A DNA stretch of 64,000 nt from Candidatus Desulfovibrio gallistercoris. Lineage in GTDB: Bacteria > Desulfobacterota > Desulfovibrionia > Desulfovibrionales > Desulfovibrionaceae. The stretch is taken from assembly GCA_019118745.1 (NCBI GenBank), contig DWYJ01000037.1, forward strand, positions 1 through 64,000. Reading direction: 5' to 3'. A program made the position numbers and the translations under genes. Shown here piece after piece: positions 17,993 to 18,888 of this stretch (the first letter of the stretch is position 1; each line of letters begins with the position of its first letter). Below the pieces are notes generated by a model, which worked only from the letters and a program-made list of their open reading frames with translations, made no database searches and was not told the origin of the DNA.

Positions 17993-18021
17993 TTGACATG
18001 GGGATTTGTCTGGGGCATACT
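17993..18021 (+). promoter_or_regulatory. sigma70 promoter of rlpA (TTGACA-N17-CATACT)
   Basis: -35 17993-17998, -10 18016-18021. Confidence 0.7.
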
Positions 18022-18162
18022 CTCCCCCACTTAGGAGGAGTATCACCCGTAAAGGCAAACCCCGTCTGGCGGTCCCCGACCGCAGACCGAGTGGGTCGCT
18101 TTCATGCGACCTGCGCCGACCGTGCTAGGGAGGCGCACCTGTACTTCAGCAAAGGAGACCCC
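18022..18162 (+). ncRNA. Structured 5' leader of rlpA (candidate cis-regulatory RNA)
   Basis: About 140 nt with hairpins gtctg-gcggtc-ccc-gaccgc-agac, ggtcgc-tttcat-gcgacc and gcgcc...ggcgc; contains the string AAAGGCAAACC. Confidence 0.45.
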
Positions 18163-18834
18163 ATGAAATTGATGCGCAGGCTTGCCATCTGTGCGGCTGC
18201 CGTGGCCTGTATCGGGCTCGCCGCACCGCTGGCCGTTCATGCGAAAGAGACGGCCCCCACCAAGAGCAAGGCCGAATCCCGCAAGGAAAAACGGAAAAAA
18301 TCTCCCACCGCCGAGAAGACCCAAAGCGCCGATGCCAACCGTGACGTCTGGCTGGAGCGCGCCCGCAAATCCGACTTCCTCCTCGGCAAGGCTTCCTACT
18401 ACAGCCCCGAATTTCACAACAAAAAGACGGCCAGCGGGGTCGGTTACGATATGTATACCTTCACGGCGGCACATCGTACCCTGCCCATCGGCACCGTAGT
18501 GCGCGTCACCGACGAACAGTCGGGCAAGAGCGTCATGGTGTGCGTAACCGACCGCGGCCCCTTCACGCGCGGACGCATCATCGACCTTTCTTATGCGGCG
18601 GCCGACAAGATCGACATGCGCCGCCGCGGCGTCGGCAATGTGCGGCTGGAGGTGGTGAGCGATGCCGACGGCACGCCGCTCTCCACGGATGAAGCGTATT
18701 ATGTGCGGTTCCGCAGCCTGGACAAGGCGGAGACCGTGGGCCCCTTCCGGGCTTTCGCCGATGCAGCCGCCATGCATGAAGCCATGCGGCAGGCGCATCC
18801 CGATGCGGAAGTGATCCTCGAAAAGGCCCAGTAA
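18163..18834 (+). CDS. rlpA: Septal ring lytic transglycosylase RlpA family protein
   Basis: Signal peptide; GKASYYSPEFHNKKTASG...TLPIGTVVRVTDEQSGKSVMVCVTDRGPFTRGRIIDLSYAAADKI. Confidence 0.9.
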   Translation: MKLMRRLAICAAAVACIGLAAPLAVHAKETAPTKSKAESRKEKRKKSPTAEKTQSADANRDVWLERARKSDFLLGKASYYSPEFHNKKTASGVGYDMYTFTAAHRTLPIGTVVRVTDEQSGKSVMVCVTDRGPFTRGRIIDLSYAAADKIDMRRRGVGNVRLEVVSDADGTPLSTDEAYYVRFRSLDKAETVGPFRAFADAAAMHEAMRQAHPDAEVILEKAQ

Positions 18835-18856
18835 GGCTTTTTTGCCGATTTCCGGG

Positions 18857-18888
18857 GCCGTCCTCCCACAGGAGGGCGGCCTTTTTTC
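18857..18888 (+). terminator. Rho-independent terminator of rlpA
   Basis: ggccgtcctcccacaggagggcggcctttttt. Confidence 0.9.

Follow-up and report, generated by a model that had tools for sequence, protein, structure and literature searches.

The ydaO/yuaA c-di-AMP riboswitch (RF00379) precedes cell-wall hydrolases in other phyla, and the ribosomal-protein autoregulatory leaders are structured leaders that are specific to their genes. Both invite comparison with the leader of rlpA in the window, by which we mean the whole 64,000-nucleotide stretch of Candidatus Desulfovibrio gallistercoris contig DWYJ01000037.1 that was analysed. The rlpA leader has the same type of target gene as ydaO, but the comparison with RF00379 proposed in the original prediction gave no match, either at the gathering cut-off or at E-values up to 10. 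With the ribosomal-protein leaders it has in common one gene per RNA, a narrow range, a structure kept despite sequence drift and, as proposed below, control exerted after transcription. Unlike them it precedes the gene for an exported cell-wall enzyme, so that direct autogenous binding by RlpA is unlikely. The c-di-GMP-I (GEMM) riboswitches (RF01051) resemble it in being a leader RNA before an envelope-related gene and in the string AAAGGCAAACC, which is shared in the window clade; they differ in that their model finds no match here, the junction is another one, the string is not kept and the family is undetected in the 25 genomes of the genus that were searched.

No Rfam family matched the window leader or the scanned loci of its relatives, and a literature search, with subscription journals mostly outside its coverage, found no description of this leader. 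Judged from the sequence comparisons, the rlpA leader is best regarded as a new family of leader RNA, tied to a single gene and narrow in its distribution, and it is a good candidate for a new control element specific to that gene. The original prediction had also allowed for an unrelated or new regulator of a cell-wall hydrolase; the relatives bear this out as far as a conserved, covarying and rlpA-specific leader is concerned, while the regulation itself keeps the standing of a candidate. The leader adds a covariation-supported RNA family, absent from Rfam, in a common sulfate reducer of the human and animal gut, and it makes a septal lytic transglycosylase, a class of enzyme whose activity must be restrained, a candidate for control at the post-transcriptional level. 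Since it is present in D. piger and D. desulfuricans relatives, it is testable in cultured bacteria.

Promoter, transcript and fold of the leader

The near-consensus promoter that had been predicted is present (TTGACA at 17993–17998, a 17-nt spacer and CATACT at 18016–18021; 10 of 12 consensus positions) and recurs in nearly all relatives (Table 1). The 1.56-kb region holds two promoter-like sites this good, where shuffled sequences would lead one to expect 0.3. With a predicted transcript start at about 18028 and the rlpA start at 18163, the leader would be approximately 135 nt long; the original prediction had given a 5'UTR of about 140 nt. The terminator-like hairpin 3' of rlpA implies a single-gene transcript.

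Table 1. Features of the rlpA locus, in positions of the window
Feature	Position	Strand	Basis
Sigma-70-type promoter TTGACA-N17-CATACT	17993..18021	+	Pattern match; kept in 41/43 relatives
Conserved leader RNA up to the Shine-Dalgarno sequence	18029..18157	+	Model R2, 155.8 bits, sole significant match in the genome
AGGAGGAGUAU region	18033..18042	+	AGGAGGAG invariant in the window clade; clade-specific, weak
P0 5' strand GUAAAGG	18049..18055	+	AGG invariant across clades
P1 arm ACCCCGUCUG...CAGACCGAGU	18059..18092	+	3 pairs changed on both sides (window clade)
P1 inner hairpin GUCCCCGAC	18072..18080	+	Invariant in the window clade
P2 arm GGGUCGC-UUUCAU-GCGACCU	18093..18112	+	Covariation; cross-clade pairing in 147/147 cells
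P3 arm GCGCC...GGCGC, abutting P2 directly	18113..18136	+	Cross-clade pairing in 95/105 cells
P0 3' strand CCUGUAC	18138..18144	+	Pairs with GUAAAGG
Shine-Dalgarno sequence of rlpA, CAAAGGAG	18150..18157	+	Sequence; conserved in relatives
rlpA, septal ring lytic transglycosylase RlpA family protein, 223 aa	18163..18834	+	Pfam DPBB_1, 6e-25; TIGR00413 rlpA, 5e-40
Intrinsic-terminator-like hairpin 3' of rlpA	18854..18883	+	13 pairs, T tail

The stems named in the original prediction, GTCT/AGAC around CGGTC/GACCG, GGTCGC/GCGACC and GCGCC/GGCGC, were all found. The leader is predicted, with good support, to form a four-way junction that is closed by P0 (AGG/CCU) and carries the arms P1, P2 and P3, an architecture shared by related rlpA genes across Desulfovibrio. 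The order along the RNA is the AGG of P0, 3–4 nt, P1, 0–3 nt, P2 and, with no linker, P3, after which follow 1–2 nt, the CCU of P0 and about 15 nt up to the Shine-Dalgarno sequence. P0 of the window (GUAAAGG/CCUGUAC) contains one mismatch. It competes with an alternative outer stem, GGAGUAU/GUACUUC, which is possible from the AGGAGGAGUAU region, is clade-specific, encloses the same arms and in the window is of nearly equal stability.

The folding energy of the leader is moderately unusual (z = -2.2 to -2.4), about 6% of random window tiles fold as low, and the z-scores are modest in many of the relatives' leaders. Since folding energy alone is insufficient, the case for a conserved RNA rests on comparative evidence.

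Conservation and distribution among relatives

RlpA was located in 77 of the 79 genomes of the genus Desulfovibrio, which include D. piger and D. desulfuricans, and the leaders were taken in gene orientation. Kinship among the sequences inflates all paired-cell and covariation counts; read with this in mind, the alignment of 19 main-clade leaders, its structure written by hand, has 91.3% of its cells paired, compared with 38–45% when the partners are slid, and changes on both sides in 19 of its 37 pairs. None of 500 shuffles reached the observed values, except in the number of further pair types (14/500). P2 has all cells paired and covariation in five of seven pairs, and P3 is nearly as good. 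The leader under study belongs to a separate clade of seven leaders, in which 98.5% of the cells are paired and five pairs are changed on both sides, values that were again reached by none of 500 shuffles. Across clades, in a table set up by hand with one representative per cluster, the paired cells of P2 and P3 (Table 1) outnumbered those of every shuffle of whole strands, the maximum being 137 for P2 among 2000 shuffles and 85 for P3. P0 is invariant within both alignments, so that covariation speaks neither for nor against it. The unpaired residues drift between the clades: one keeps the GGGC loop of P2 invariant, the other the P1 hairpin with CCCC.

A lack of conservation or covariation in orthologous rlpA leaders had been named as the result that would tell against a structured leader; on comparison, both properties were found. 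The secondary structure is supported by covariation, as expected of a cis-regulatory leader RNA and, on this comparative evidence, the rlpA leader is a real conserved RNA. A strict pattern descriptor of the fold proved too rigid; a relaxed version, with 39 of 70 leaders recovered, also passes about 7% of background CCT sites and is of descriptive use only.

A model built on the main clade (R1) found a match in 30 of the 79 genus genomes, and searches of 199 genomes of the family and 297 of the order gave no significant match beyond the genus. Its weak matches in other genera (L088–L094, E-values of 0.01 to 0.08) have no adjoining rlpA. Taken over genus, family and order, each significant R1 match but one is the leader of an rlpA gene, and each gene copy has a single match. 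The exception, in G169:C20, was rejected as a copy of the leader because it falls within a large protein-coding frame. The corresponding model of the window clade (R2) matches, within the family, the rlpA leaders of that clade and, independently, those of D. piger; in other genera it has two weak matches, one of them in G009 (E-value 0.005). The other, in G187, lies within a coding gene on the opposite strand and was likewise rejected. Save for isolated, chance-like matches in coding sequence, the RNA lies throughout in the same place, the 5' leader of rlpA.

Among the named loci, leaders of both the window clade and clade B turn up with the weakest R1 matches, in exact register, and this suggests a single homologous RNA whose sequence drifted. 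On the RlpA tree, the three leader types need just two changes of label. The rumen and termite-gut lineages gave no recognisable copy of the leader, which implies either its loss or its divergence beyond recognition. Desulfovibrio sp. RUI265 (G230) carries two different rlpA copies (L132 and L148), both with the leader RNA; a duplication or a mixture of strains might explain the pair.

Proposed control of rlpA and competing explanations

No intrinsic terminator was found within the leader, making attenuation by such a terminator unlikely; a leader that is non-coding and terminator-free would probably exert any control on translation or on the decay of the message. To the eye, the AGG of the Shine-Dalgarno sequence is an attractive alternative partner for the CCU strand of P0. 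In ensemble folding, no more than 7 or 8 leaders out of 30 had this pairing above 0.2, and blocking P0 brought no consistent change in Shine-Dalgarno access, in a rough test for which the extracted sequences included upstream DNA and P0 was picked automatically. A simple switch in which CCU sequesters the Shine-Dalgarno sequence is, in view of the low pairing and the inconsistent response, not supported. In clade B (L013, L017, L018 and L022), UUGGUU in the 5' part of the leader perfectly complements AACCAA just before the Shine-Dalgarno sequence, and a clade-specific sequestering stem is possible there.

With no terminator and no support for a Shine-Dalgarno switch, a factor acting post-transcriptionally is favoured. 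A strong promoter of constitutive type would produce an rlpA message with a cis-acting four-way-junction leader, which would act after transcription initiation, on ribosome loading or mRNA decay, and on rlpA alone. The amount of the RlpA lytic enzyme would be set by a factor that recognises the fold; a protein or small RNA is the likeliest kind of factor, a metabolite a less likely one. We give such post-transcriptional control about an even chance of being correct. The promoter pattern, the covarying fold, its conservation, the exclusive link to rlpA, the lack of a terminator and the non-coding nature of the leader are directly supported; from these we infer regulation, its level of action and the existence of a factor. 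Three observations count against control through such a factor, namely the drift of the loops between clades, not a usual trait of ligand aptamers, the low predicted CCU/Shine-Dalgarno pairing in most leaders together with the inconsistent effect of blocking P0, and a P0 that lacks covariation support.

The main rival is a constitutive structural element that protects the 5' end from RNases or keeps the ribosome-binding region open (standby or insulation) and neither senses nor switches. Such a stabilising or insulating role is tentatively entertained here as a real though lesser possibility: the structure is kept while the loops drift, the Shine-Dalgarno sequence sits just beyond the junction, and most leaders have no stable alternative state that would hide it. 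Four precise arms around a fixed junction, with no linker between P2 and P3 and just 1–2 nt from P3 to P0, nevertheless exceed what protection needs, and the clade-invariant loops (GGGC; GUCCCCGAC) suggest contact with something.

A metabolite riboswitch of a new class, turning translation of rlpA on or off in response to, for example, a cell-wall fragment or a nucleotide second messenger, is improbable. A multi-arm junction that abuts the ribosome-binding site, strong covariation, and junction and loop residues that are invariant within the main clade are what one might look for in such an RNA. The leader is, however, confined to one gene and one genus, has no unpaired core common to the clades, offers no convincing alternative state and has no relative in Rfam. 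That Desulfovibrio should possess a riboswitch-like sensor of a cell-wall or division-related signal controlling RlpA synthesis is doubtful.

Very unlikely is the reading of the leader as an N-terminal extension of RlpA, for which the frame, open in the window for 165 nt upstream (from 17998), might be taken as an argument. In relatives that share the fold, stop codons interrupt this frame at -21 to -84, the distance to the ATG varies by non-multiples of three, and the conserved Shine-Dalgarno sequence serves the ATG at 18163. With the frame interrupted or shifted in length in this manner, the leader is not coding and this candidate was rejected.

The divergent c-di-GMP-I (GEMM) riboswitch of the original prediction has next to no chance of being correct and was rejected, since the genus yielded no such riboswitch above the cut-off (0/25 genomes) where the same search, as a positive control, readily found them in related families (11 of 16 genomes), and since neither the window leader nor its relatives matched RF01051 at E-values up to 10. 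The hallmark string AAAGGCAAACC, which speaks for it, does occur at 18051–18061, but its AAACC part is not conserved, the relatives carrying AAAAGGCAUUCCCC in its place, and the four-way junction is unlike the GEMM fold. The second strand of GEMM was rightly said to be absent, for in place of the conserved GGGACGCAAAGCC with its tetraloop receptor the leader has GAGUGGGUCGC, which is part of the covarying P2 arm.

Two other genera have rlpA leaders of their own. In genus g39 (L155 and L156), a long leader behind a TTGACA promoter contains the strong hairpins GUGCCAC/GUGGCAC and GUGUCC/GGACAC, with folding z-scores of only -1.7 and -1.0. The leader of genus g42 of the family (L151–L154 and L165) is a different one of about 230 nt; an Rfam scan of the L151 leader gave no match. 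It contains long invariant blocks (GGCUUGCCUUCGCGCAUCGGAGCCGCGC; GGGCGAUUUCCGCUCCACG...GGAUCGCAGAC...GAUCGG...CGUGACUUCAUCUCAACCCGGAG), its consensus fold has an energy of -63 kcal/mol, and it is possibly a second rlpA leader RNA.
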